Source: a virus
Reading direction: 5' to 3' (one strand)
DNA: 42,228 nucleotides
IMG/VR virus record: IMGVR_UViG_3300009094_000185
Coordinates: 1-42,228 of that record
Below are positions 16,390 to 40,909 of this stretch, in pieces (positions within the stretch are counted from its first letter, which is position 1; each line of letters begins with the position of its first letter). The position numbers and the translations under genes were made by a program. The notes beneath the pieces were generated by a model. The model had not been told where the DNA came from and ran no database searches. It was given only the letters and a program-made list of their open reading frames with translations.

Positions 16390-17766
16390 TTATTCACCTA
16401 TGTATGCTGTTCTAATCGTAGGATTAGGAATTCGCAGACTTACCTGATTGTTATAAATATCGACGCGCGCTTCCTTTGGTTTATTGACCACGAACAGACC
16501 ACTCAAATCATCTTTGGGGGCAAGTGCGCGACCAGTTGGAAATCCAGTGTAGATGACATACAGCATTTGTTGAGATATACGTGATTCCTTAGTTGGCCCC
16601 TGCGGCGTTACAGGATTCCACAGAAACTCCGCACCAAATCCCCATCTATACATGTTAGTTGCTGCAATAGGTCCAGGAATAGTTAATCCTGCATTTCCTG
16701 TCTGCATGAAACTGTTATTAGCTAATGATGTATTACTTACTTCCACATTATTAGGATCCCTGTATAGTCCCCATGCCTCAGTTGCGGGTGTTCCTACATC
16801 TGCTCCAGTATTAAAGAAGCCATAATATTTAATACTACTCACCGTTGAGTCATTAGGAGGAATTGAACCTTTATCCATGAATTTAATAAAGTGAACTGCT
16901 TTATAGAATGTAGGAACAGCGGGAGTAAGCCCCGGATCTATATATGCAACTGCACTACCGGGACCAGTACCATCAGTATTGACTGGATACAGCCATGTAG
17001 GACACGGTTGGGCAGTTGCTAGATATGCAGGATCATTCCAACCACCTATCACTCCGGCTGTAATCAAATTAGGCCGGTTGATATGCTGATCCCACATATG
17101 TCCCTGTTCCCAATTAAGTGACGTATAGGGATTAGCAATGTTACCTATATCTCCTGCCGTTCTCAGAGGACTAGCCCAAATTGGTGCAGGTCCAGCTACA
17201 GGACCAATGTTAGTATCCCATCTATTTGCCTGAGCCTCAAACTGTTCCTTAGTCAGTGCATCCTGATTCCAATACTTGAAGCAGCAAACATCCGCTATGT
17301 TACTGATGGCAACTACCAAGTTATAAAATGGGTCATTAATGCTATATCCCGTTCCTGCGGCAGTTACTTGCGTTAGTGTGACCGGACGTTCCCAGGGATT
17401 CGTGCTTAATGGATCTTCTACTCCAGCATAAACTGTAACATTAGCTCCACTCTTAGCAAAACAGAATACTTGCCATCTGTTGTGCAGGACAAAGCCTATG
17501 TCTGTAGAGGGAGCAGCAAGAGTTTTATCGCGTGCAGTCAGATGCCATACAATTCCGTCATTCTGTATGATTATGTTCGACCCCCCGATACAGTTAAATC
17601 CGACTAATGTGTTCGGGACCGTGAAATACTGCTTGACCCAAATACAGAAACTCCACTTTTCCGACGCAGCAGGAGTTATACCTGGGAAAAAAATAGGCGG
17701 ATTTTCAGACCCAGTAGTCTGAAATCTTATCAATTGCACATAACCCGCGCTAGACCTAACCGACAT
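16390..17766 (-). CDS. probable virion protein with LamG/concanavalin-like N-terminal domain
   Basis: 458 aa. Residues ~25-190 resemble a LamG/concanavalin-A-like jelly roll: EKWSFCIWVKQ, a WHLTARD strand, NRWQVFCFAKSGANVTVYAG, and NIADVCCFKYWNQDALTKEQ near the end. Such domains bind glycans. The C-terminal part is beta-rich, with no catalytic motif. It overlaps the tail-hub gene by 11 nt. It may attach the fibres or recognise surface polysaccharide. Confidence 0.5.
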   Translation of the reverse strand: MSVRSSAGYVQLIRFQTTGSENPPIFFPGITPAASEKWSFCIWVKQYFTVPNTLVGFNCIGGSNIIIQNDGIVWHLTARDKTLAAPSTDIGFVLHNRWQVFCFAKSGANVTVYAGVEDPLSTNPWERPVTLTQVTAAGTGYSINDPFYNLVVAISNIADVCCFKYWNQDALTKEQFEAQANRWDTNIGPVAGPAPIWASPLRTAGDIGNIANPYTSLNWEQGHMWDQHINRPNLITAGVIGGWNDPAYLATAQPCPTWLYPVNTDGTGPGSAVAYIDPGLTPAVPTFYKAVHFIKFMDKGSIPPNDSTVSSIKYYGFFNTGADVGTPATEAWGLYRDPNNVEVSNTSLANNSFMQTGNAGLTIPGPIAATNMYRWGFGAEFLWNPVTPQGPTKESRISQQMLYVIYTGFPTGRALAPKDDLSGLFVVNKPKEARVDIYNNQVSLRIPNPTIRTAYIGE

Positions 17767-22787: not shown

Positions 22788-24041
22788 CTAATATCCAACT
22801 GGAACGGCCAACGAGTCGATGTATGAGCACGCAGCAGGATTACTTACGAATGTCTGCATACCCACGACCATGTAGAAGATTTCCGCCGCAGCCACACCAC
22901 CAGATGCGCCGCGAATCTCGAAAATCTTACGCCCGTCCGTAGTGTAGAATCCAATCGGAAGAATCTCACCACGTCCCCACACTTCATCGACCACGAAGTC
23001 AATGCGTGTCTTGTCCCAGTTAAACGACGGAGTAACTGGTGCACCAGCCAACTGCATGTTGGAACCACCGAAATACATGTTCAGTGATTCTTCTTTTGCA
23101 GCTTTCTGGATGATGCTTACGAGTTGACCAATCTCCTCGTAAGCCTGCTGCTGACATGGATGCGTCCATGCTTTCGGTGAGAATGAATTCTCGATGCCTA
23201 CTCTGTTTCCAATCTTGTTGATAGCAAGACGTGGAAGTGGCAGAGTAAGTGCAGAACCACCCGCGTTGACTCGATTTGCACGAATCTCTGGAGTAGTACT
23301 GCGCGAGAATCCCAACCATGTACCAGCACTCGCGTTCGAGTGATGATACGGCACACCGAACAATGCAGGCAATGAAGCTGGTGCAGTCAAACCAGCAGTC
23401 ACCAACTTATCACTCGCACCTACGCCAGCGACTTGTGGAGTCAAACTGATTACTTTGTTCTCCACATCCCACTGAGTGATAAGAGCTTCACCCTTTTTCG
23501 TGGTTAAGCCCGTATCCCATACTTGCACCGTCTGACCGTATCTGACCAGTCGTGCGCCAAATCCGTCAGTTGTCAGTGTGAGTACGTTTGATCCGCCAGC
23601 AGGAGTGTCGGTGGTAACTACACCAACTACACCATCACCAGTCTGCATCATCTGACTATCCAACTGCCTTCTCATCTCGTCTAAAGCAGTTGCGGTCAGC
23701 TTACGGACACTATTGATGATAGCCTTTCTCGCATCATCAGTAGCCCATTGTGTCAGCTTGGTGTATTCAATGTTCTCACTCAAGAAAACACAGTTCAGAA
23801 CGGCCTTATCAAAAGTAGGCCCACCACCTCGACCCAGATCACCACCATCAGGATTGAAGTATTGGAAACTACCTCCGGGTCGGAGTTCCAATGGAACACG
23901 CATTTGACGGTGTGAAATCTTCTCCACATCCCGTTTCTTGATGTTCGCATAGAACTTGTCATCGCGCTCAAACAGTACGCGGACTTTTGGAACAACTTTC
24001 TCCAACTCAAGTGCCGCGACTTGAGCCTCATTTACAGCCAT
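22788..24041 (-). CDS. major capsid protein
   Basis: 417 aa, between the scaffold and the capsid-associated genes. The N terminus is helical (NEAQVAALELEKVVPKVRVL). Beta-rich domains with REVP/GGS-type loops follow (MRVPLELRPGGSFQYFNPDG), then the long spine helix NSVRKLTATALDEMRRQLDS, as in podovirus HK97-fold capsids, and a tail ending YIDSLAVPVGY. No protease is present, so maturation does not obviously involve cleavage. Strong assignment by location and size. Confidence 0.8.
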   Translation of the reverse strand: MAVNEAQVAALELEKVVPKVRVLFERDDKFYANIKKRDVEKISHRQMRVPLELRPGGSFQYFNPDGGDLGRGGGPTFDKAVLNCVFLSENIEYTKLTQWATDDARKAIINSVRKLTATALDEMRRQLDSQMMQTGDGVVGVVTTDTPAGGSNVLTLTTDGFGARLVRYGQTVQVWDTGLTTKKGEALITQWDVENKVISLTPQVAGVGASDKLVTAGLTAPASLPALFGVPYHHSNASAGTWLGFSRSTTPEIRANRVNAGGSALTLPLPRLAINKIGNRVGIENSFSPKAWTHPCQQQAYEEIGQLVSIIQKAAKEESLNMYFGGSNMQLAGAPVTPSFNWDKTRIDFVVDEVWGRGEILPIGFYTTDGRKIFEIRGASGGVAAAEIFYMVVGMQTFVSNPAACSYIDSLAVPVGY

Positions 24042-24050
24042 AATTCCCCT

Positions 24051-25331
24051 CTAGTCTTTCATTAACACATCCAATGTGCTCATCCCGCGCGGGATATCAC
24101 TCGCCTTCTTGTATTTTCCACTAGAGGGGGCCTGTGGACGGCCGGGCGTAATTGGACTCTTTCTAGGAGTCTCTTGTTCTTCTTCCTCTTGATTCTCTAC
24201 TGAATCTGCACGCCTGCCTAAACCTTTCAGAGCATCATTCCTGACCTTTTTAATCACTGATGGTAACAGTGTCTTAGCTTTGCTCAAATAGGCAGACTTA
24301 ATCTTGTCCTGAGATTCTTTGCTGTATCCGCTTTGATGTGCCTTCTCCCACAAGCGGTCCAGTAATCCACGGAATTGACGATCTTTACTCAGCAGATCAT
24401 CCAGCTTATCGTAAGCCTCTTTGACTGCATGTTGTTTTACATAGTCAGTCATCGTGCCACGAGGATCAATGTTTCCATCAATCGTCGCCATCAACACGTT
24501 ATCAGCCTTCGTCTGCAATTGTTCCCGTGTTGATTCAAACGCATCATAGGCTCGCTGATAATCTTCTCGTTGAATCTGCTGCTGTCTCTGCTGTTCCTCT
24601 GGAGGCTGCTGCCTCGACAGATTAACTGGCGGAGAGAAATTCTGTGAACCAAATACAAATTGGTTCAGTATGTTCGCGGCTGCCTGTAACGGTGCGCCCT
24701 GTTCTCCTAATGCTCTACTCTCACGAACCATCGTAATGATGGTATCTTTTATGACGTTGCCTAACACATGATAGTATGCACCCTGATCAACTTTCCTCAG
24801 CGTCGGGAGATAGTTGTCCGCAATTCGATTAAATACTTCCTGATCCTCACTTTTCGCCGCCTGTAGAACCGAGGTTATGTCGCCTGACATAATCTGCTGT
24901 TCTACGGTGTCGAACATACTCGCTTTATCCGCCGACACGCGCGCGTCATTAATCGTAGGAAATACTTCAGTAAACTGTTGTTCCCTGTAATACGCCTTCT
25001 CAAGATACGGAAAGTCCTTGAATAGTTTTGGATATTTTGCTAGAATCTCTCTCCTGCGAACAGGAGTCATTAACTCCAAATCTTCTTCTTTTGGTCCCTC
25101 TAGTTCTTCCTCAATTTCCTTTAACTCATCAATTTCCTCCTCTTTATCCTCCTTCTCTCCTTTTTCATCTTCTTCTGTATCTTCTTCTCCAGTTTTTTTC
25201 GGAGTAATATCCAATACTTCAGGTTCTTCTTCGGCATTCAACAGCTCGAATGTTTCCTGACTTTCTTCTTTTTCACCTGCACCAGCCGGTGAATCAGGAG
25301 TAGCGAATAATTTACTGAACTGTAGGTTCAT
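24051..25331 (-). CDS. scaffolding protein
   Basis: 426 aa. The N-terminal ~110 residues are extremely acidic (ITPKKTGEEDTEEDEKGEKE). The rest is helical and coiled coil, with Gln-rich DRAYDAF-type segments, and the C terminus is basic/helical and may dock the capsid. It lies directly between portal and capsid genes, overlapping the portal by 20 nt. Scaffold of the procapsid, inferred from composition and position. Confidence 0.7.
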   Translation of the reverse strand: MNLQFSKLFATPDSPAGAGEKEESQETFELLNAEEEPEVLDITPKKTGEEDTEEDEKGEKEDKEEEIDELKEIEEELEGPKEEDLELMTPVRRREILAKYPKLFKDFPYLEKAYYREQQFTEVFPTINDARVSADKASMFDTVEQQIMSGDITSVLQAAKSEDQEVFNRIADNYLPTLRKVDQGAYYHVLGNVIKDTIITMVRESRALGEQGAPLQAAANILNQFVFGSQNFSPPVNLSRQQPPEEQQRQQQIQREDYQRAYDAFESTREQLQTKADNVLMATIDGNIDPRGTMTDYVKQHAVKEAYDKLDDLLSKDRQFRGLLDRLWEKAHQSGYSKESQDKIKSAYLSKAKTLLPSVIKKVRNDALKGLGRRADSVENQEEEEQETPRKSPITPGRPQAPSSGKYKKASDIPRGMSTLDVLMKD

Positions 25332-27687
25332 ACTGACCTTCTCCTAATGGGGTACCAGTACTAGCTGGGGGCGGACCCTGTGGCCCCTGTTGCGGCATCA
25401 TTCCACCTTGTTGCGCCATCATCTGTTTCTGCATTTCCTCCATCTGCTTCTGCATATCCATGTCCTTGTGCATCTTCATATGCAGTAACACATTCTCGTA
25501 TCCAGCAGGATTCTCTAGTTTAGCTAGCCTACCTGCATCCGACACCAACCATCTTCTATCAACATCTGCTGCTAGAACATGATTGTCCACATCATAATCC
25601 GGCTGAATACTCGGCAATCGTTGTGGCGGCGGTGGCTGCAAGCCCTGCATCTGGGCTTGCACCATCATCATAGGATCAGGCGGCATTTCAATCGGTTCAC
25701 TGTTAATCAGCAGTTGAATTTCATCATTTTCCTTCTGTCTATCATCCTCTCCTGCAATCACGTAATCAGTAATACCAAGTGATTTCTTCAGGAATGGAAT
25801 ATTCTCAGGTGTAGTCAATGCATTCAGGATCATCTCATTGTTCAACTCGAACAACTGCATGATCGTATCCTTCTGCTGATTCCAAGTAATTGGCAAATTC
25901 TCATTCGCCTCTAGTTCAATACTTCCAATCTTTCCTTCTAGTTCAGCTTTGCGAATGAATACATTCACAAAGTTGCCGAATTCATCCTTCTTAACCTGTT
26001 TCTCATCATCTTTCATCTCTTTAATATACATCGGAATTACTTTACCGAAGATATCCTTCCACCACATCGTCAACATTTTCCACGTAGATTGCAATCTTTG
26101 CAATGCCTGTGAACGGCTCATGCTATATTCTGAGGCCGTTCTAGAACCACTCATCTGACCACCAAAGAGAGAAGGTAAAGCTCCTGATACCATTTGACCG
26201 ATTTCCTGAACCTTCTGGGCAAATGGTAAAACCTCCTGTGAAAGAGTCGCCGTCCTAACTTCGTAGAACCCTTCTGATAACGGTTTCCCCGACTTGGGAG
26301 TAGCAGGATATATTCCACCGGGGATAACCTCCGAATTACGGTATGCATTGAAATTCAACACTTTCGGGTCTGCAAACGTCTGTGGAATCCCATGTTCTAC
26401 AGTCTGGAGTACAAGTGAGATAAGATCGTTTGTAATATCCTGCACCGAAGTGAGTAGTAGGCCAACCGGATCGAAATGAATATAATCCGACAGCGGATTG
26501 TAAGTAAGCGTCCAGCAGTCATCCATAGCTTCATTACAAGCATGAGCCACAAAGTCATCAACCACCACTACTTTCACACCATCAGGAAATCGTTTCTTCA
26601 ATTCATCAGCTTCGTCCTTGTTCAGAACATGATAGGATGATGGACGCAGCCAACAATTCCTTACTGTGACGTTGTTGACTGGATGTTCTCCTCTGTATTG
26701 GGGCGATGTTCGTCCCCACTGCTCATACAGGTCGTAGTGGGATGATCCTTTTCCGACTTTTTCATGCAAGTCTGGATATTCTTCGAGAACATTAGCAAAA
26801 TGTGTCTCGTAAGAGTAGATGAGATAGGCACACTCTTTCTGTGTCCTAGCCCATACTGGAACTTTAACAAAGAGCCCACCATATACCTCCATGCATATAC
26901 GAGATTTAGGATGCTTAGTTATTCCAACTAATCTAGTTACAGTAAGAGTTTCATAATTCTTCTGTGGCAGAACAGTTCGCCCACAAGATTCACAAATTTC
27001 CATCTGATTCATTGGAACATCTTCATCTCCTGGCATGAACTGATCTTCGGTTGGATTAGTAATTGGAACCAATCCTGCTGCTTGTTCTTGCATCTGCTGT
27101 TCAGTCATGGGATTTACGATTTTATCTCCCATTTCAGCCTGACAGAACGGACATGAACTCAATTCATGTTCTTCTTGTGATTCCTCGTATTTCTTTTTCT
27201 CATATGTTCCGTATTTCTCATCCTCTTTTGGATATGCATAACACGCGGTCATGCCCTCTGTGCAATACACGAATAATGCATGAATCCAAAACAATGGAGC
27301 ATTATTATGCCTGAAGATTAATTCACAGATTTTATCTCCTGCCTTCGCCGTAATTACATCTAGAGGATTGTCAGCATCGTCAGGATAGCAAGTGACAGGA
27401 GGAACTGTGACGCTGAGTGCGGCAATTATTGACTCAAGGTAAGCTCGATAGATGTTGACTGGTTTGTCATAATACCCCTGATCACTATCTTCACCGACTC
27501 TTTCAGCTTCAGGAATACGCCAGTCATGCGCTACCTCACTGTAGTATGTATGTTGAATATTCTCCCAAAGCAATTTTAGTCTTCTCCACGTACGAATCTG
27601 TCTATCTCTGACTGCGCGGTCCTCATCGTCAAAGTGGTCCACAATTTGTTTTAGTAGAGCCTTAGTGTGATCGTCTAGTTCTTTCAT
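25312..27687 (-). CDS. portal protein with inserted zinc ribbon
   Basis: 791 aa, P22-type. Helical wing/clip (RIRTWRRLKLLWENIQHTYYS), beta strands, a stem region (SQVLPFAQKVQEIGQMVSG, SMSRSQALQRLQSTW), and a C-terminal Met/Gln/Pro-rich barrel tail (QKQMEEMQKQMMAQQGGMMP). At ~179-235 it carries CPFC ... CESCG, a split zinc ribbon with ~49 residues between the pairs, not usual for portals. It is coupled to the upstream endonuclease VII gene by an ATGA overlap. Confidence 0.75.
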   Translation of the reverse strand: MKELDDHTKALLKQIVDHFDDEDRAVRDRQIRTWRRLKLLWENIQHTYYSEVAHDWRIPEAERVGEDSDQGYYDKPVNIYRAYLESIIAALSVTVPPVTCYPDDADNPLDVITAKAGDKICELIFRHNNAPLFWIHALFVYCTEGMTACYAYPKEDEKYGTYEKKKYEESQEEHELSSCPFCQAEMGDKIVNPMTEQQMQEQAAGLVPITNPTEDQFMPGDEDVPMNQMEICESCGRTVLPQKNYETLTVTRLVGITKHPKSRICMEVYGGLFVKVPVWARTQKECAYLIYSYETHFANVLEEYPDLHEKVGKGSSHYDLYEQWGRTSPQYRGEHPVNNVTVRNCWLRPSSYHVLNKDEADELKKRFPDGVKVVVVDDFVAHACNEAMDDCWTLTYNPLSDYIHFDPVGLLLTSVQDITNDLISLVLQTVEHGIPQTFADPKVLNFNAYRNSEVIPGGIYPATPKSGKPLSEGFYEVRTATLSQEVLPFAQKVQEIGQMVSGALPSLFGGQMSGSRTASEYSMSRSQALQRLQSTWKMLTMWWKDIFGKVIPMYIKEMKDDEKQVKKDEFGNFVNVFIRKAELEGKIGSIELEANENLPITWNQQKDTIMQLFELNNEMILNALTTPENIPFLKKSLGITDYVIAGEDDRQKENDEIQLLINSEPIEMPPDPMMMVQAQMQGLQPPPPQRLPSIQPDYDVDNHVLAADVDRRWLVSDAGRLAKLENPAGYENVLLHMKMHKDMDMQKQMEEMQKQMMAQQGGMMPQQGPQGPPPASTGTPLGEGQYEPTVQ

Positions 27688-29458: not shown

Positions 29459-31020
29459 TGCACCTGCCACTCATGAATGTATGCGTTGATTAGACCCCAC
29501 GTAACTTCGCCTTGGTCCGCACCCTGAGCGATCGTATACAACCGTCTCGTCGCAGCATTGAAGAATCCAGTGGCATTCATCTTCGCATTGCCTACTGAAC
29601 TAACCGGCGCGGTGACGATGTCGTAATCCTTCTCAAGATTAGACCATGCAGTAGGTTCTTGCTCGTAATCTACTGCATCTCCATCGCGCACTCGATTCAA
29701 ATCAGACCAATCGTAGTTAAATGCGGCGGGATATCTCGCGGTCGCCACAGGCCCAGTTATACCAGCCGGAACTGCATCACATCCATGCGGACATCTGTAA
29801 TTGTTTAGCCCTGTCGCATACCAGATATGACACGCTAGACAGTTAGTAGGATCAAGTATCGGACTTCCTGACACGCCAGCGAAGAACATGACGCGATCTT
29901 CTAGAGGAACAAATCCACCAAGCGTATCATTATCAGTCCAGCTACCAATGCCGTTGTAATGTATAGGATTGATGAAATTACTTTGTTGATTCGCGTCCCC
30001 ATCGTAAATATATGCATCTATCGGTCGTCTCTGCGACCGAACTGGACCATTAGCAATGCCACTAACACGATCAATTTCTGTCCCCATGTAGTAATGCCAC
30101 AGGTATTTATCAGGTAACATCAAATCATTACCCGGTCCTACTGGCATTGTTCGGGTAGGCCATTGTGCGCCACCATGCAGATTAGCTCCCCAAGGATATC
30201 CTGAATTACCACTGGACATCGCGGTACTTGTGAGAACCAATCCACTGACGGGATGCGCGCGTAGGCAGGAGGAAATTCTTGTACCAAATCTCATTGAACC
30301 ATCTGGGTCCATTCCGGCGAATCTGAATGGTCCATATGCTTCAGTCGTTCCATCGTCATTCAATTGGAGCGCGACGCAATTCCAATCTGGTCTACCTGTT
30401 ACGTTGTATGTATCGCCATAAGTGGTGAAGAAAAGATCTAATTCGGGATGATAGTAGTGACCAGTTGTAACGACGGAATTGTTCCCCGCGAAGTCTACGT
30501 ATTCCCAATCGTTACCTGACTTTCCCTCTTTCCTTGCTTTCGAGTAAAGTAAAAAGAACAGAGTTGCTAACTGATGTAAGTGCGGTAAATGCAACTTCTT
30601 TGCTAAATCTCTGTATCCTCTAGAACTGGATAGCATGGAAGCGACTTGCATCCATGTTCCGCGCTTACCTTTGTATGGATCATTCCAACTTCTCACCAAC
30701 GTAGCTACTGGCTCGTCACTAATCTCTACTTCATTGATTGGAGATCCTAACACTACGTCACCTGTGAACAATAATCTGACCTTCCCATCTACAATTCGGC
30801 CCGTGCAATCTCCGTATGCAAAGCCCATGTTCAAACTAGGTAGGCCAATTTTCCTCACATAGGTTAATCCTATGTCTCCCATGACTGGAGGATCAATTGG
30901 ATCTGGAGGATCTATGTCAGGTGGAACGATATTGGACAGAGTTAGAGTCCCCCTCAGATTCTTTGCAGAACCATCAGGGTTAACTACTGACAATGAAACT
31001 TTGTAGTCGCCGGTAGTCAT
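29455..31020 (-). CDS. large beta-rich protein with truncated Ig/PKD-like start
   Basis: 521 aa, starting on TAATG after the terminase. The first 28 residues (GDYKVSLSVVNPDGSAKNLR) look like the second half of a PKD/Ig-like domain, with the first strands missing. A Pro-rich linker (IVPPDIDPPDPIDPP) follows, then a beta-rich body with many Trp and Gly that may be propeller-like. It contains CLACH (CxxCH) at ~398-402, probably coincidental because no signal peptide is present. Possible virion decoration or host-interaction protein. Not assigned. Confidence 0.5.
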   Translation of the reverse strand: MTTGDYKVSLSVVNPDGSAKNLRGTLTLSNIVPPDIDPPDPIDPPVMGDIGLTYVRKIGLPSLNMGFAYGDCTGRIVDGKVRLLFTGDVVLGSPINEVEISDEPVATLVRSWNDPYKGKRGTWMQVASMLSSSRGYRDLAKKLHLPHLHQLATLFFLLYSKARKEGKSGNDWEYVDFAGNNSVVTTGHYYHPELDLFFTTYGDTYNVTGRPDWNCVALQLNDDGTTEAYGPFRFAGMDPDGSMRFGTRISSCLRAHPVSGLVLTSTAMSSGNSGYPWGANLHGGAQWPTRTMPVGPGNDLMLPDKYLWHYYMGTEIDRVSGIANGPVRSQRRPIDAYIYDGDANQQSNFINPIHYNGIGSWTDNDTLGGFVPLEDRVMFFAGVSGSPILDPTNCLACHIWYATGLNNYRCPHGCDAVPAGITGPVATARYPAAFNYDWSDLNRVRDGDAVDYEQEPTAWSNLEKDYDIVTAPVSSVGNAKMNATGFFNAATRRLYTIAQGADQGEVTWGLINAYIHEWQVQ

Positions 31021-32669
31021 TAGTGTCTATACCTCGACACAGGTTTAATCGAATCGTTTGATTCTACTCTCGCCATGTTACGGTAGAACGCAGTCCAATC
31101 GTTACTTGTATTCAGTTTATTTACTAACGCCTCTTGTGCTTGGATTTTCTTGAACTCTTGATTAGACTCATCGAAGAATCCCTCTGCTGCATCCACGAGA
31201 TATCGCAGTCCGTCGATTGGATCATCCCCTTCAAATTCTGCAATATCTTCTGCGGGTTTGTTTCCTTTTGGTTTGTCGTAGCTACAAGCCTTAATTGCTT
31301 CGACGAGTATTGGCGCGCATCCCTCAAAGATTTGGAGTTTCGGAATATTAGTCTCAGGTTCCTGTGGATCGAATGAGACGAGGTACGATTTGTACTCTCC
31401 CATGCCTCGGTTACGCATAATCCACATCGCGTATTCTTCATTATATAGTGGCATTACATCTTGGCTAATCAGTTTCGGCTGCCACCGTAAGTATTCGTGT
31501 ATGAGTAGTTTTCCAGCAATACGCGAACCGGGAGTATTATTACTGAGTTCGACAGATTGACCAAGTTCATCCTCAATCTGTTGTTGAATTGTGTGCTCCT
31601 GTCCTCTTTCTTGACCTGCACTTTTGCAGAATCTGATGAGGCGCGGGTTCTCTTTGTCGATGTAGATTTTAACATGTGGTGCCCATTCCGCAATCTTCGT
31701 CTTTACCCAGTATTGCTCACGGTAAATGTATACGCGCTTCAGCGGAGATATCGCAGCCCATCCAATCCATGTCATTGCAGCGAATCCCCAATCTCCAATG
31801 ACCATGCGCGGCCACCATTGAGGAATTTCAAACTCTGGAATCACATGCAATGCATTAGCCGGTTCGTCCTGAAACTTCCTGTCACGAAACTCATCGAACA
31901 CTTGCCCCTGATATGCATCCCAATCGCCTAATAATTTAGCTTTTCGTTCAGCTTCGATTGTAATACCTTGTAGAGATTGTCTATATGTTGGGTCAATATG
32001 TTTATTATCTTCGAGCGTCGAGTGAATGTAGATTCTTTTGTTTCCTCCTCTACCGACAATAATTTTTCCACCTTTTGGGTAAGGTTTGATAAATCGTTTA
32101 TAAGTCCAAGTATGTCCAATTCCTCCAGGCATTCCTGCTGCGCGCGTGATGGATGGTAGTCCAGAATCTTTCGGGGCACGATTACGCTGGAAGGTAATGT
32201 AGGTGTAGATCCACTCAGTGATGGACGTGAGTTCGTCCGGCGTGTAGAGGCAGATTTGCATCGTGTCATATTGGTGAACGTCATCCTCATTCTCACAATG
32301 ACCCAAAAAGATCATAGCCCCTTCATTTGCTCTGGTTGCACCAGCAGCTCCATACTGATCTTCACGCGGAAATGTCCAGCACATCTCAGTCTTGTTGAGC
32401 GTCGCTCCAAATTTTCTGTATAACTCTCTAGATCGTGGAATAATTTCATTACGGAGTTCAGGGTATGTTCGTCGCATGAAAACTTGCTTGAACTTCGGAT
32501 GTTCGTGCCATCTGTGTACGATTCCATACAGTAACAGCACGTCAGATTTACCTGAACCTGCTCCCCCTCCGTAAAACGCTTCCTTTATACTGACCGGAAT
32601 AGAGAGGAATAATTCCTGCTTAGGCTCAGGCTTCCATTCATTTACTGTATTCTTTAGATCAGGATTCAT
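31020..32669 (-). CDS. terminase large subunit
   Basis: 549 aa from ATG 32669; the upstream in-frame ATG at 32720 lies inside the preceding gene. Walker A GGGAGSGKSD at ~34-43, Walker B around ICLYTPDEL, and C-terminal nuclease acidic residues near VIGDWGF and DDPIDGLRYLVDAAEG. Packages DNA through the portal. Unlike many phages, TerL and the probable TerS are separated by four genes. Confidence 0.85.
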   Translation of the reverse strand: MNPDLKNTVNEWKPEPKQELFLSIPVSIKEAFYGGGAGSGKSDVLLLYGIVHRWHEHPKFKQVFMRRTYPELRNEIIPRSRELYRKFGATLNKTEMCWTFPREDQYGAAGATRANEGAMIFLGHCENEDDVHQYDTMQICLYTPDELTSITEWIYTYITFQRNRAPKDSGLPSITRAAGMPGGIGHTWTYKRFIKPYPKGGKIIVGRGGNKRIYIHSTLEDNKHIDPTYRQSLQGITIEAERKAKLLGDWDAYQGQVFDEFRDRKFQDEPANALHVIPEFEIPQWWPRMVIGDWGFAAMTWIGWAAISPLKRVYIYREQYWVKTKIAEWAPHVKIYIDKENPRLIRFCKSAGQERGQEHTIQQQIEDELGQSVELSNNTPGSRIAGKLLIHEYLRWQPKLISQDVMPLYNEEYAMWIMRNRGMGEYKSYLVSFDPQEPETNIPKLQIFEGCAPILVEAIKACSYDKPKGNKPAEDIAEFEGDDPIDGLRYLVDAAEGFFDESNQEFKKIQAQEALVNKLNTSNDWTAFYRNMARVESNDSIKPVSRYRH

Positions 32670-32673
32670 TTGA

Positions 32674-33294
32674 CTAGTACTGAACTGGACCGCCACCACC
32701 GAACCGTGGACCAATTCCACCCTGTCTCATCTGCCTGAATCTATTGACTCTATCTTCATCCATTGAAGCATTAGGCATAGGCATCTCACCCATTCCCTGC
32801 GCTTGATCCATCATTGGTTGCTCTTGTGGCTGCATCATTCTACCAAATCGTGGCATGACATGCGGGCGCGCACCCATTGATGGTCCTACACCAAATCCTC
32901 TGGGTTGCATTGCCTGCATCTGTTGTATCTTCTGCTGCACCATCTCCTGATCTGGTCCTTGTGCCTGTTCCTGCATTTCTTGTGGAGGAGGTTGCATTGG
33001 CATTGGCGGTCGTTGCATCTGACCAAATCTTCCGGCTAATCCTGCTCCTGCTTGCGCCATATTCTGCAATGCTGGTTGTGGCATTCGATTAATTGGCCCT
33101 TGCTGCAAGTTTAATGGCGGTGCTTGTTGTACCTGCTGTGGTGGTTTAGCAGGGCCTAATCCTAGTTTACCACCTACTGCGCTTATGCCGGGAGTTTTTT
33201 GTACACCCCTCTGCACAGCACCCATTCCCGGCAATTTTCCTACAGCTTTGACAGGTGCTTTCATTGCTTTACCAAGTGCGCCAAGGAATGCCAT
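32674..33294 (-). CDS. low-complexity Gln/Met/Pro-rich protein
   Basis: 206 aa, with a Gly/Ala amphipathic N terminus (LGKAMKAPVKAVGKLPG) and a Gln/Pro/Met-rich remainder. Similar in style to the 242-aa protein at 28127. Probably an internal or ejection-related virion component; not assignable by sequence. Confidence 0.5.
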   Translation of the reverse strand: MAFLGALGKAMKAPVKAVGKLPGMGAVQRGVQKTPGISAVGGKLGLGPAKPPQQVQQAPPLNLQQGPINRMPQPALQNMAQAGAGLAGRFGQMQRPPMPMQPPPQEMQEQAQGPDQEMVQQKIQQMQAMQPRGFGVGPSMGARPHVMPRFGRMMQPQEQPMMDQAQGMGEMPMPNASMDEDRVNRFRQMRQGGIGPRFGGGGPVQY

Positions 33295-34771: not shown

Positions 34772-35338
34772 TCATTCCTTTACTTCGATTGTTTCAAAGC
34801 TGCGCTCGTCACGGAATGTAGGCGCAAAGATCACGAATTGAGGCGCCTTCTGCGACGCATCATCTGCCGCCTGCGGAGCAGGCTCCATGTTCTTGATGAT
34901 GACTGACATATCTTTCGCTATGCCACTTAAGTCCTTCGCGTCGGCATAGTCCAGCTTCTCTTGCGTGAGTGCTTCTAATGCAGCGTTGAGTTTCTTCCCA
35001 GCGCGCTTCACTACACGCATTCTGGATTTGTTTATATGCTGGATTATGGATGGTTTCGGTGTGTCGTATGTCGTGGTGGATGTTGCACCATTCGCATACG
35101 CGCTTACTGAGGAAGGGCTGATTCCAAAGTCTTTGGCTAATTGCAACGCGCTCTGACGCCCGTTGATTACTGCTTCTTCGCCAATAATCTGACGCAGAGA
35201 ATCAGGCACATTTATGTCGCCCTCATTTCTACCTCTAGTTGGTTTATCTACAATCTGAGCGCGTGTCTGTGGTTTAGATGGAACCAGATTAGCTAGTTCC
35301 TTCTCCATCTCAGAATCAGTTACCAAGCCAATAGGCAT
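34772..35338 (-). CDS. probable terminase small subunit
   Basis: 188 aa, first gene of the late operon. An HTH-like segment (GRQSALQLAKDFGISPSSVS) at ~60-80, then a Lys-rich helix (RMRVVKRAGKKLNAALEALT) and an acidic tail. Podoviral small terminases bind DNA with such a domain. The ATG has GAGG 7 nt upstream. Assignment is by HTH, size and being in the terminase block. Confidence 0.6.
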   Translation of the reverse strand: MPIGLVTDSEMEKELANLVPSKPQTRAQIVDKPTRGRNEGDINVPDSLRQIIGEEAVINGRQSALQLAKDFGISPSSVSAYANGATSTTTYDTPKPSIIQHINKSRMRVVKRAGKKLNAALEALTQEKLDYADAKDLSGIAKDMSVIIKNMEPAPQAADDASQKAPQFVIFAPTFRDERSFETIEVKE

Positions 35339-35413: not shown

Positions 35414-35443
35414 ACTATAGCACGAATCGCGCCCGTCTGTCAA
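35414..35443 (-). promoter_or_regulatory. late leftward sigma70 promoter
   Basis: On the minus strand: TTGACA (35438-35443), 18-bp spacer, extended TGC and TATAGT (35414-35419). Five of six -10 positions match consensus. A 9-bp gap precedes the dyad at 35453-35475. The leader begins around 35407, with about 70 nt before the TerS ATG. This promoter is nearly identical in the -10 upstream segment to the rightward one at 37724. Confidence 0.75.
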
Positions 35444-35452
35444 GTCCACTCT

Positions 35453-35475
35453 AACTCGTTTGAAATCAACGAGTT
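35453..35475. promoter_or_regulatory. 8-bp inverted repeat upstream of the late promoter
   Basis: AACTCGTT-N7-AACGAGTT, perfect. It lies 9 bp upstream of the -35 of the late promoter. A related but degraded version (AACTCTTT ... TCAACGACTT) sits 9 bp upstream of the -35 at 37724. Likely an operator or activator site. Confidence 0.55.
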
Positions 35476-35603
35476 GCAGTGACCGAACCGAATCGGGTAT
35501 CTACCCTACCTGATTATATGTATGAGACTCTTTATATGGAACCAACTTGACAGTTCGGACATGACTCATGCGATTTCTACCAAGCCCACCCGACTACTTG
35601 TGG

Positions 35604-35650
35604 GTGTAATTTTTACACAGGGGTATACTCCCCCCGTGTATATCTTACAC
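35604..35650. promoter_or_regulatory. paired GTGTA-N5-TACAC dyads
   Basis: Two perfect dyads, at 35604-35618 and 35636-35650, with centres 32 bp apart (about three helical turns). They flank GGGGTATACTCCCCCC. The identical half-sites and spacing make a repressor or activator operator pair likely. No phage repressor gene is evident. Confidence 0.6.
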
Positions 35651-35660
35651 GCCCGCGAGC

Positions 35661-35709
35661 CCATAAGAAAAATTTATGGCCGGTCGAAGTTCATAAGCCC
35701 GGCTTATGA
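35661..35709. promoter_or_regulatory. paired CATAAG-type dyads
   Basis: CCATAA-N7-TTATGG (35661-35679) and TCATAAGCC-C-GGCTTATGA (35691-35709), both 19 bp, centres 30 bp apart. They share the CATAA half. Together with the GTGTA pair they make four dyads with roughly 30-bp phasing. Confidence 0.55.
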
Positions 35710-35739
35710 GCTTTGCAACGCAGAGTACTTGGACCCGCT

Positions 35740-35759
35740 TAATGAGACTGGTCTCATTA
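35740..35759. promoter_or_regulatory. 20-bp palindrome TAATGAGAC-TG-GTCTCATTA
   Basis: Nine-bp perfect arms with a 2-bp centre; the short centre points to a DNA operator rather than an RNA hairpin. It lies just upstream of the rightward promoter at 35782. Confidence 0.5.
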
Positions 35760-35893: not shown

Positions 35894-35923
35894 TTGACAG
35901 ATGATGGCGACTTCAAGTAAGAT
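35894..35923 (+). promoter_or_regulatory. rightward sigma70-like promoter for the first early gene
   Basis: TTGACA at 35894-35899, 18-bp spacer, TAAGAT at 35918-35923. The expected start near 35930 is about 35 nt before the ATG at 35965. Confidence 0.6.
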
Positions 35924-35964: not shown

Positions 35965-36327
35965 ATGAAAAACGAAAAAGACACAGCGGTAGCAAAGACC
36001 GCGTGGACTCAGCCGATTGACCCTCCGATTACATACCCGTATTCGTGGACGGAGTATGAATCCTTCGAGGAGCTGCAAGCCGCGAAGGACGAGTTGACGA
36101 ACGACGAGCAAGTAAAGGTTCGCAACACGGAGCGTAAAAACAACGCGCGTCAGAAGGCGTATGCTGTGGCAATGAAGGAAGCAGGATACGAAAAGCAGAC
36201 GGCGGAGAACAATGAGCAGGTTCGTCTCAAGGACATGTTCAAGGTTCTCATGACGAGCAAGAAATACACGGAGCAGCAGGCCCGTGAGCTTGCTTCCAAC
36301 ACCCTCGGCATTGATTGGGCTGAGTAG
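35965..36327 (+). CDS. first early-arm protein, unknown
   Basis: 120 aa with SD GGAAAGGGGGTG before the ATG. Charged, helical; Lys/Glu/Gln-rich with a conserved-looking C terminus (KYTEQQARELASNTLGIDWAE). It is the first gene behind the 35894 promoter, typical of host-takeover genes, but no motif was seen. A 12-bp hairpin follows. Confidence 0.6.
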   Translation: MKNEKDTAVAKTAWTQPIDPPITYPYSWTEYESFEELQAAKDELTNDEQVKVRNTERKNNARQKAYAVAMKEAGYEKQTAENNEQVRLKDMFKVLMTSKKYTEQQARELASNTLGIDWAE

Positions 36328-38672: not shown

Positions 38673-38831
38673 ATGACTGTCAAGGAATTGAAGGAAATGA
38701 TTGCAGAGCTTCCAGATAATTTGGAAGTCTGCTACGAATATGATGGGCCGGATGCGCACACAGAAGTTGAAGCGCATACCATCATCATCTACTCAGACCG
38801 TATTCTCATCGTAGAGAAGGCGGTGAACTAA
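38673..38831 (+). CDS. small early protein
   Basis: 52 aa, MTVKELKEMIAELPDNLEVC, an alpha/beta fold typical of short phage proteins. TAATG overlap with the SprT-SNF2 gene. Unknown function. Confidence 0.6.
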   Translation: MTVKELKEMIAELPDNLEVCYEYDGPDAHTEVEAHTIIIYSDRILIVEKAVN

Positions 38832-40909
38832 TGAATCGTAAAGATGCAGCGGACTTGCTCAGAACCAAACTCAACGAGTTTGGTTTGACAGATTGGTCAG
38901 TCCGTCTCAACCAAAATGCAGAGTCTCGATTTTTGGGACTCTGTAGCTACAAGGACAAGTGTATTATCTTGTCTGCCCACCATATCGACATACATCCTGA
39001 CCCGGACGTGCAGAACACTATTCTGCATGAGATAGCCCATGCATTAGTGGGGCCGGGTCACGCGCATGATGAGATTTGGCAAGCCAAAGCTCGCGAAATA
39101 GGATGCGACAACACTCTCCCGTGCTCTAACCTTTCACTCTCTCCTGAGATTATCGATGCGATTCGCTCTGGCGCGGATGTGGAAGTTACATTCGACGAGC
39201 ATCTGATTCGCACTCCGAAATACACCGTAACGCGCTTGCAGGATAAGTGCGAAGTATGCGGGAAGGTTGCAAAGACTAAGAGCGAGAAAACCATTGTGAG
39301 TCCGAGTGATGACCAGCCTGATATGAAGTTTATCACGCTGGAATGCGGACACATGATGTTCAAGAAGATTCCGAAAGGAACTCCATTCCATCAATTTCAG
39401 ATGGGTGGTGACGCTAATTGCCAGCATGAATGGAATAAGAATTCATGCATGAAATGCAATCGCAAGCGTCCCTACGCATTCCAATTGGAAGGAATGAAGT
39501 TCCTAGAGCAGGCCCTCTCAGTAAGCAAGGGCGGCGCGATATTCGATGAGATGGGACTAGGTAAGACCATTCAAGTCGGCGGCTACCTGTATTTCCATCC
39601 TGAGTCATATCCGACATTATGGCTCGTCAAGTCCGCGCTCAAGTATCAGACTGCATCATTCATTCTGCATTGGATGGGCGACGAGCATGTCCCGCAGATA
39701 GTCAATACGTCGAAGGATTGGCTCATTCCTGGTCTGAAGCACTACATCATCGGCTACGACATGCTGGTGCATAAGACTAGGACATTGAAGAACGGCACAG
39801 TCGTAACGTCAGGATTCGACATCAAGCAATTTGACCGTGTTGGAATCAACTGTGTCGTGCTAGATGAATGTCAGCAGATTAAGAACGTGGACAGCAGCCG
39901 GACGCAGATGGTGCGACAGATAGTGAAGTCGCGTAAAGTCATTGCACTATCTGGCACACCGTGGAACAACCGTGGTTCTGAACTATTCCCCGTTCTCAAC
40001 ATGATGGACCCTGTTAAGTTCCATAGTGAGGCGGGATTCAAGAGTCGCTGGGTTGACACATACTGGAGCGGCAGATATCAGAAGGAAGGCGGAATACGTA
40101 ATATCAAGGCGTTCAAGGAATACACGAAAGACTTGTGTATCCGTCGCGAGAGGACTGAAGTCCTACCAGAATTGCCGTTAGTCAACAGGACCAAATTGAA
40201 TGTAGTGATGGACACTACACAAGAGAAGGTTTATGACGAGGCGGTCGCTGAGTTTGTAGCGTGGTATGAAGCTCAGGTAGAGGATATGGGCGGGATGGCT
40301 ATCATAGCTGCTATGGCTAAGATGCGCCGTCTAGTTGCTCTCGCTAAAATCGCTGCTACAGAGGAATACGTGGATGAGTTCGTAGAGGATACAGATAGGA
40401 AGCTCTGTGTTTTCGCTCATCACAAGGACGTGCAAGAGATTCTCTTTACGGACATCAAAGAGAAATACGGCGACCAATTCCCTGTGTTGCAGATTAACGC
40501 AGAGCAGAGTTCATACACGCGGAATGAAGTATGCGAGAAGTTCAATGCTTCACCACGCGCTATACTCGTCGCTAGTCAGTTAGCAGGTGGAGAAGGATTA
40601 AATCTCCAGACATGCTCTGATTGCGTGATGCATGAGAGGCAGTGGAATCCGGGTAAAGAGGAGCAGTGCGAAGGACGATTTATCAGGATAGGCTCAACTG
40701 CTACTTCTGTCTCAGCCGTCTACGCGCACTTGGAAGGTATTACGACTACAGACCCACAGCTTGATGGAATCGTGGAAAGGAAGCGGATTCAATTCCATGC
40801 ATTGCATAACAAGGGCGAGGCTGTAGCGTGGAATGAGGACTCCATCATGAAAGAATTGGCGGAGTCAATTGTCAACGCGCACAAGAAAAAGACGCGGAAA
40901 GCTAGCTAA
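38831..40909 (+). CDS. SprT-like protease / SNF2 helicase fusion
   Basis: 692 aa. Residues ~1-100: SprT-like zincin with HEIAH (66-70) and GHAHDEIW (76-83), supplying the three zinc ligands and catalytic Glu. Zn ribbons follow (C140, C143, C172; C197, C206, C209). Residues ~215-690: SNF2/superfamily 2 ATPase with Walker A DEMGLGKT (239-246), motif II DECQ, motif III SGTPWNN, and motif VI QCEGRFIRIG. SprT proteases digest DNA-protein crosslinks in eukaryotes (SPRTN); SNF2 enzymes remodel or translocate on DNA. The pairing suggests cleavage of proteins on DNA. Bacterial or phage homologues with this fusion may exist; database search not possible here. Confidence 0.85.
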   Translation: MNRKDAADLLRTKLNEFGLTDWSVRLNQNAESRFLGLCSYKDKCIILSAHHIDIHPDPDVQNTILHEIAHALVGPGHAHDEIWQAKAREIGCDNTLPCSNLSLSPEIIDAIRSGADVEVTFDEHLIRTPKYTVTRLQDKCEVCGKVAKTKSEKTIVSPSDDQPDMKFITLECGHMMFKKIPKGTPFHQFQMGGDANCQHEWNKNSCMKCNRKRPYAFQLEGMKFLEQALSVSKGGAIFDEMGLGKTIQVGGYLYFHPESYPTLWLVKSALKYQTASFILHWMGDEHVPQIVNTSKDWLIPGLKHYIIGYDMLVHKTRTLKNGTVVTSGFDIKQFDRVGINCVVLDECQQIKNVDSSRTQMVRQIVKSRKVIALSGTPWNNRGSELFPVLNMMDPVKFHSEAGFKSRWVDTYWSGRYQKEGGIRNIKAFKEYTKDLCIRRERTEVLPELPLVNRTKLNVVMDTTQEKVYDEAVAEFVAWYEAQVEDMGGMAIIAAMAKMRRLVALAKIAATEEYVDEFVEDTDRKLCVFAHHKDVQEILFTDIKEKYGDQFPVLQINAEQSSYTRNEVCEKFNASPRAILVASQLAGGEGLNLQTCSDCVMHERQWNPGKEEQCEGRFIRIGSTATSVSAVYAHLEGITTTDPQLDGIVERKRIQFHALHNKGEAVAWNEDSIMKELAESIVNAHKKKTRKAS

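Follow-up and report, generated by a model that had tools for sequence, protein, structure and literature searches.

IMG/VR virus record IMGVR_UViG_3300009094_000185, the whole 42,228 bp of which we call the window, is a single record of an uncultured phage whose gene blocks diverge, with leftward structural genes from 35338 and rightward early genes from 35965. The gap between these blocks carries at 35453-35759 a dense group of unlike inverted repeats (dyads), and relatives of the phage carry dyads of other classes around the same conserved core. We favor, with about even confidence, the reading that this would be a fast-turnover cluster of sites for host regulators that controls divergent phage transcription. 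Between 35453 and 35759 there are 11 perfect dyads with arms of at least 5 and spacers of at most 12 (shuffle mean 2.7), including six with arms of at least 6 (shuffle mean 0.64) and three with arms of at least 8 (shuffle mean 0.04); each of these counts was matched by 0 of 1000 dinucleotide shuffles, and the longest arm by itself was reached in 9 of the 1000. Among 839 overlapping 307-bp segments of the record, none attained the summed arm length of this region and five attained its dyad count. The density of unlike dyads described in an earlier sequence-only reading of this DNA is therefore borne out, and the four centers that it named (35611, 35643, 35670 and 35700) are exact. The elements of the region, none of which is assigned a strand, are the following:

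35453..35475, Box L dyad AACTCGTT-N7-AACGAGTT, conserved and adjoining the leftward -35 element
35604..35618, D1 dyad GTGTAA-N3-TTACAC, center 35611, left of the core, which at least 8 of the 49 relatives have with two mismatches or fewer
35620..35633, conserved palindromic core (family consensus ACATGGGTATACCCC), at the midpoint between D1 and D2
35635..35651, D2 dyad CGTGTA-N5-TACACG, center 35643, right of the core and 32 bp from D1
35661..35679, M1 dyad CCATAA-N7-TTATGG with an A-tract spacer, center 35670, window-specific
35691..35709, M2 dyad TCATAAGCC-N-GGCTTATGA, center 35700, window-specific
35720..35732, single copy of the A-class motif (CAAAGTACTYTGC, one mismatch), from a motif scan
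35740..35759, T dyad TAATGAGAC-TG-GTCTCATTA, center 35749.5, a perfect inverted repeat

The centers of the GTGTA dyads (D1 and D2) lie 32 bp apart and those of the CATAA dyads (M1 and M2) 30 bp apart, as had been claimed, and the GTGTA pair fits the proposed recurrence at nearly three helical turns well. A common spacing of all four dyads did not hold up: the steps between their centers are 32, 27 and 30 bp, and 27 bp is 4.5 bp short of three turns. Since only the GTGTA pair is near three turns, the region is better described as a set of dense unlike dyads than as one phased array of four.

Relatives were collected through the 188-aa protein encoded at the start of the leftward block. Of its 61 loci, 53 were used and 8 omitted (truncated gene start or sequence identical to another locus), and these 53 together with the window gave, after identical starts were merged, 48 distinct control regions (47 relatives), some of them truncated; L073 and L074 were added afterwards as carriers of the B motif defined below, making 50 regions. 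Dyads are in excess there instead of occurring at the frequency of shuffled sequence: the 34 of 50 regions that have the core and enough sequence, the window included, hold 88 dyads against 21.0 in shuffles, and a comparison set of 80 random 300-bp windows holds 67 against 47.3. Leftward promoter, Box L and core form an anatomy common to these regions, and the dyads around the core and to its right differ from genome to genome. The core is found with up to three mismatches in 36 of 50 regions (the window's own copy reads GGGGTATACTCCCC) and has sharp edges, with about 2 bits inside and mostly 0.0 to 0.3 bit outside across 28 aligned regions with at most two mismatches; it is probably bound by a conserved factor. 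Box L carries 0.96 bit per position in its arms and 0.27 bit in its spacer over 46 of 48 regions, values that are biased because matches were picked by their arms and that include some surely false weak matches. The most symmetric copy of Box L is that of the window, and the GTCAA next to it is retained in most relatives. Between Box L and core, the window (35495-35560) and many relatives also contain repeated ATGGGACCC / ATGAGACTC elements.

The conservation between relatives that the sequence-only reading had proposed to look for thus exists for Box L and the core but not for most other dyads. D1 and T are common with relatives, the latter occurring in L074, L015 and L043 with at most two mismatches and also in L075. 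D2 is almost private to the window, its best match among relatives having three mismatches, and the CATAA dyads are private, with M2 in 0 of 49 relatives and M1 in 3 of 49, each time only with five mismatches. As to the window's nearest kin, L001 has the core and none of the dyad classes, and L011 has D1 and the core.

Several dyad classes recur in the 50 regions far above their frequency in shuffles, namely A (AAAGTACTYTGC; 42 sites against 3.6), B (AGTGGT-N3-ACCACT; 18 against 1.1, a count that includes 8 sites of L073 and L074, regions found by B itself, and is 10 without them), C (CCACAAKATGTAGTG; 27 against 1.2), D (GTGTAA-N3-TTACAC; 19 against 1.3), T (AATGAGAC-N2-GTCTCATT; 6 against 0.1), E (GTGTATAAATATACAC; 6 against 0.6) and G (TAGACCG-N2-CGGTCTA; 5 against 0.7). 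A loose CATAAG class stayed at chance level across the same regions (18 against 15.8). In complete genomes, the better-defined classes concentrate in the control region. The idea of a multi-factor operator grouping is upheld by this recurrence and clustering of unlike classes, some of which match NrdR or ParB sites in relatives. When mapped onto a tree built from the 188-aa protein (40 rows, the label 'other' included), the dyad classes change 14 times, with a minimum of 6 and 24.2 in shuffles; they are clustered on the tree but switch repeatedly, even between close relatives. They also cross phage lineages, because L070 and L075, two more distant phages, share B or T dyads located in an intergenic gap.

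Some of these classes are arranged at helical-turn distances. B dyads flank the core 33 bp apart in L043 and L031, 42 bp apart in L074 and 44 bp apart in L015, and E dyads flank it 42 bp apart in L017; the six B sites of L031 follow each other in steps of 33, 106, 32, 33 and 33 bp. The 20 neighbor steps of B in six regions, three of them found through the B motif, follow a 10.5-bp phase (R 0.599, with p 0.0004 when compared with random placement). A sites are direct repeats mostly every 17 or 34 bp, and in L010, L014, L016, L018 and L024 we observed iteron-like arrays of AAAGTACTCTGC-type units, mostly with a 17- or 34-bp period. Given the 17-bp repeats of A and a weak signal of all classes pooled, phasing is a property of B and C and not of every class.

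The C class resembles the operators of NrdR, the near-universal dATP/ATP-sensing repressor of ribonucleotide reductase (RNR) genes, which according to PMC12051234 binds two 16-bp palindromes, best with spacers of 15-17 bp that place the centers three turns apart, with four turns tolerated. C sites are likewise 16-bp palindromes with centers at helical-turn spacing: pairs at 31-32 bp are present in 8 of the 13 C-labelled regions (L023, L025, L034, L035, L036, L040, L044 and L050), with two pairs each in L025 and L035, and L033, L045, L048 and L051 have pairs at 29-30 bp with a weak left box; L020 is without a pair. Scored against ACACWATATATWGTGT, which we take to be the NrdR consensus, the C sites in pairs match at 10-13 of 16 positions. 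NrdR-like pairs unmatched by any of 50 shuffles were found in L019, L023, L035, L036, L040, L044 and L050, and the same test was also passed by L010, L025, L033, L049 and L056, some of these pairs being AT-rich, so that a consensus scan is not clean by itself. Pairs scoring at least 23 were counted in 15 genomes, whose control regions (18 kb) contain 3 of them and whose remaining 683 kb contain none. Among bacteria, the C motif with two mismatches occurs at 34 places in seven genomes and is not enriched genome-wide, since a backward control pattern gave more matches. The sole bacterial support for NrdR thus comes from the gene context of eight places inspected among these 34, which were chosen by eye and therefore yield no rate: three have RNR genes downstream of the C look-alike, encoding NrdA in a Burkholderia, NrdR-NrdJ in an actinomycete and NrdJ in a member of the Sedimentisphaerales. 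A search for the ATP-cone domain of NrdR gave no hit above cut-off in 25 phage records, and no NrdR gene was found in the phages examined. With paired boxes, RNR-gene look-alikes and no ATP-cone in the phage records, host NrdR would be the natural reader of the C sites, though its binding is a prediction.

A second bacterial signature is the exact 16-bp sequence TGTTCCACGTGGAACA, presumably the published chromosomal parS, which is found in five genomes (L020, L036, L040/L042, L044 and G007, the record of L026), in a single copy per genome and within or near the early leader. The ParB_N domain was detected in one of 18 phage records (G022) and not in G005, G007 and G011, the three parS carriers covered by this search. 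Because some of the relatives' sites resemble sites of bacterial regulators in this way, the phage probably reads the state of its host.

We therefore propose to view the variable part of the divergent control region as a putative, quickly replaced operator cluster in which the conserved core would be flanked and followed by dyads whose class is exchanged between close relatives. The swapped dyads would most likely be sites of host and not phage DNA-binding proteins, NrdR and ParB in some relatives, with the GTGTA pair, the CATAA dyads and the TAATGAGAC dyad of the window as candidate sites for other host regulators, and their binding would make it depend on the state of the host whether early (rightward) or structural (leftward) genes are transcribed. 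What we infer in this account is that the sites are bound, which factors bind those of the window and how transcription is affected. In a more elaborate form, which we offer as a tentative possibility, the core-centered slot would be a plug-in socket at which lineages exchange whole operator modules (NrdR pairs, parS, or dyads of unnamed regulators at three or four turns), with one and the same early switch responding in each phage to a different signal from the host, and the GTGTA pair of the window would be the operator of an unnamed host regulator binding as a pair of dimers.

Several observations weigh against the involvement of host regulators. The dyad classes were defined after viewing the same sequences in which they were counted. 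The window itself has no parS (TGTTNCACGTGNAACA, at most one mismatch) and no NrdR pair at 30-33 or 40-43 bp with at least 9 of 16 matches in both boxes; the spacing of its D pair resembles that of NrdR boxes, but compared with the NrdR consensus the arms are inverted, and D pairs at 32 bp do not recur outside the window. With all classes pooled, a period of 12 bp gives stronger values than one of 10.5 bp, where the phasing is weak (R 0.205, p 0.046), so that we rejected a helical phasing shared by all classes. The exact B dyad is not above chance in a collection of species genomes (22 loci, with about 30 expected by arithmetic), D is present in 1 of 288 Verrucomicrobiota genomes, T is present in 0 of 392 genomes around a Planctomycetota center, and no host clade emerged from these searches with B, D and T, which did not cover Acidobacteriota and other soil phyla. 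The proposal that the window is a socket for host regulators accordingly draws on analogy with its relatives, since the window lacks an NrdR pair and parS and no host clade was obtained for B, D and T. Specific candidates were dropped along the same lines: B as a GntR-type host site, because the exact 17-mer is not enriched (9 of its 22 places lie in open frames of fewer than 110 codons and the rest in longer ones, with no pattern); D as a Fur-like 7-1-7 site, given the Verrucomicrobiota result; and a supposed link of A to acidobacterial PadR, as a 475,658-bp Granulicella plasmid holds 0 sites.

The genes and promoters on either side of the dyads comprise the following features:

34772..35338, minus strand, 188-aa helix-turn-helix (HTH)-like protein, first gene of the leftward structural block, with 61 relatives in viral contigs
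35414..35443, minus strand, sigma70-like promoter TTGACA-18-TATAGT, 11 of 12 consensus positions
35894..35923, plus strand, sigma70-like promoter TTGACA-18-TAAGAT upstream of E1, 10 of 12 consensus positions
35965..36327, plus strand, E1, 120 aa, first early gene, with homologues in 34 of 46 regions, some truncated

The evidence for the rightward promoter is weak because shuffles yield 1.0 promoter-like site per region. From its position and HTH-like motif, the 188-aa protein may be a small terminase subunit (TerS-like); it has no PHROG or Pfam match, is not encoded in the bacterial genomes searched, and gave a low-confidence model (pLDDT 62) unfit for a fold search. Other phage-like genes include that of the terminase large subunit (31020-32720) and one for a primase-like protein. 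We further observed a family A DNA polymerase with a fused uracil-DNA-glycosylase domain at 174-2801 and an SNF2-type helicase with a fused SprT-like metalloprotease domain at 38831-40909. By DNA, the window has no close relative in the phage collection, where its terminase and polymerase matches are all below 60% identity and the protein encoded at 25312-27687 has no homologue.

We consider another reading rather unlikely, although it has several points on its side: the dyads would serve as operators for at least one regulator encoded by the phage, either unrecognised or located in a missing part of the genome, with arrays that change along with immunity or regulator specificity. Identical dyads repeated in one genome, such as the six B sites of L031, resemble classical phage operators, and many small early proteins belong to no known family. 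Near-complete relatives have 45-49 kb, with extra genes that separate the helicase from the polymerase. This interval extends in G001 from a helicase end at 16400 to a polymerase start at 23623, and its counterpart in the window is about 1.5 kb, split over both ends of the record. Some 5 kb of early genes are therefore probably missing from the window, and a regulator could be encoded among them. No adjacent lambda-type repressor gene was found in the window record, which is probably incomplete, and the statement of the sequence-only reading that no repressor gene was recognised still stands, as no gene goes along with the type of dyad: among the 20 genomes compared, near-complete or partial, no gene family follows dyad class convincingly or is restricted to all members of one class as a regulator would be, and near-complete genomes of different class share the same early gene set. 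E1, which we considered as a hidden repressor and rejected, has a confident predicted structure (pLDDT 92.9, beta hairpin and helices), yet this model found no fold match in PDB and viral libraries at E<=0.001, and E1 as the sole query matched nothing in viral contigs; in L017, L026, L030 and L046, the early region has two E1 homologues. The NrdR boxes and parS of relatives also point to host proteins.

A replication origin, with the dyads, the A-tract and the 17-bp direct repeats of some relatives as initiator sites, seems improbable. Direct repeats of the A class mostly 17 or 34 bp apart, a minimum of cumulative GC skew at about 35-37 kb and A-tracts seen by eye downstream of the core in many relatives would suit it, but the genes change direction at the skew minimum, which by itself could cause it. 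Iteron-like spacing is moreover missing in the window, which has a single A motif, and in most classes, and the NrdR pairs and promoter positions suit regulation. In G004 (the L018 record), the core and A sites are present twice about 45.25 kb apart, so this contig has a terminal redundancy of about 1.6 kb.

We similarly give little credence to the possibility that the sites are decoys: in many phage copies, they would draw NrdR or other host repressors away from the repressors' own promoters, for instance to raise the supply of dNTPs, with no need for control of phage genes. The presence of two NrdR box pairs in each of L025 and L035, the lack of an ATP-cone gene above cut-off and the clustering of sites instead of a distribution over promoters agree with titration; a fixed position around the core beside promoters would be unnecessary for it, and the single parS per genome is a poor decoy. 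Quite doubtful, too, is a packaging (cos/pac) site formed by the core and neighboring dyads and recognised by the adjacent TerS-like protein. About 300 bp separate the TerS-like gene from the core upstream of it, and the palindrome of the core is the best-conserved element, but the HTH region of that protein is almost invariant while the dyads change, so the protein could account for the core only. Chance, RNA hairpins or terminators are a very improbable source of the dyads, being already contradicted by the excess over 1000 shuffles and by the recurrence of identical dyads within genomes in either orientation, despite one weak terminator-like stem at 35587-35606 (0.6 in shuffles).

A cluster read by host regulators can be set beside several known systems. 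Operators of lambda-type repressors are repeated dyads between divergent promoters, a layout that recurs here, but with several unlike dyads in one region and no repressor gene found in the record. Like chromosomal parS, the 16-bp sequence in the early leaders or early region of five relatives is exact; unlike it, the sequence is in single copy and in phages in which no ParB was found in the genomes searched. Palindromes of about 16 bp paired at 31-32 bp center to center in several relatives match NrdR operators as outlined in PMC12051234, but these pairs are arranged about a phage-specific core within the control region of a phage and are absent from the window. The closest precedent that we know is described in PMC9437464, the CtrA-site clusters of the alphaproteobacterial phages vB_BsubS-Delta and vB_StuS_MMDA13, which are dense groups of host-regulator sites, as our dyads may be, with gain and loss of sites between relatives as here, and whose setting in an intergenic gap of high site density between divergent blocks is also that of our region. 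These phages use one regulator for which, by PMC9437464, binding and regulation were shown, whereas here several unlike classes of predicted sites replace each other in a single phage family. In the Pho boxes of cyanophages, too, phage promoters are read by a host regulator (PhoB), though these are dispersed single promoters (PMC10976474) and our sites are clustered.

Host regulators that read early switches of phages are thus already known for CtrA and PhoB. In the open-access full-text literature, we found no report that the control region of a phage contains NrdR boxes or a chromosomal parS, and what would be new here is that a single phage family exchanges the class of regulator around one conserved core. 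If true, such a family, with a constant switch and changing regulators, would reveal how wiring of this kind evolves. The NrdR boxes would link early transcription of the phage, or derepression of host RNR, to the dATP/ATP balance, parS would link early transcription to host ParB, and the unnamed dyads would offer a route to new host regulators and thereby to the hosts of these soil phages.
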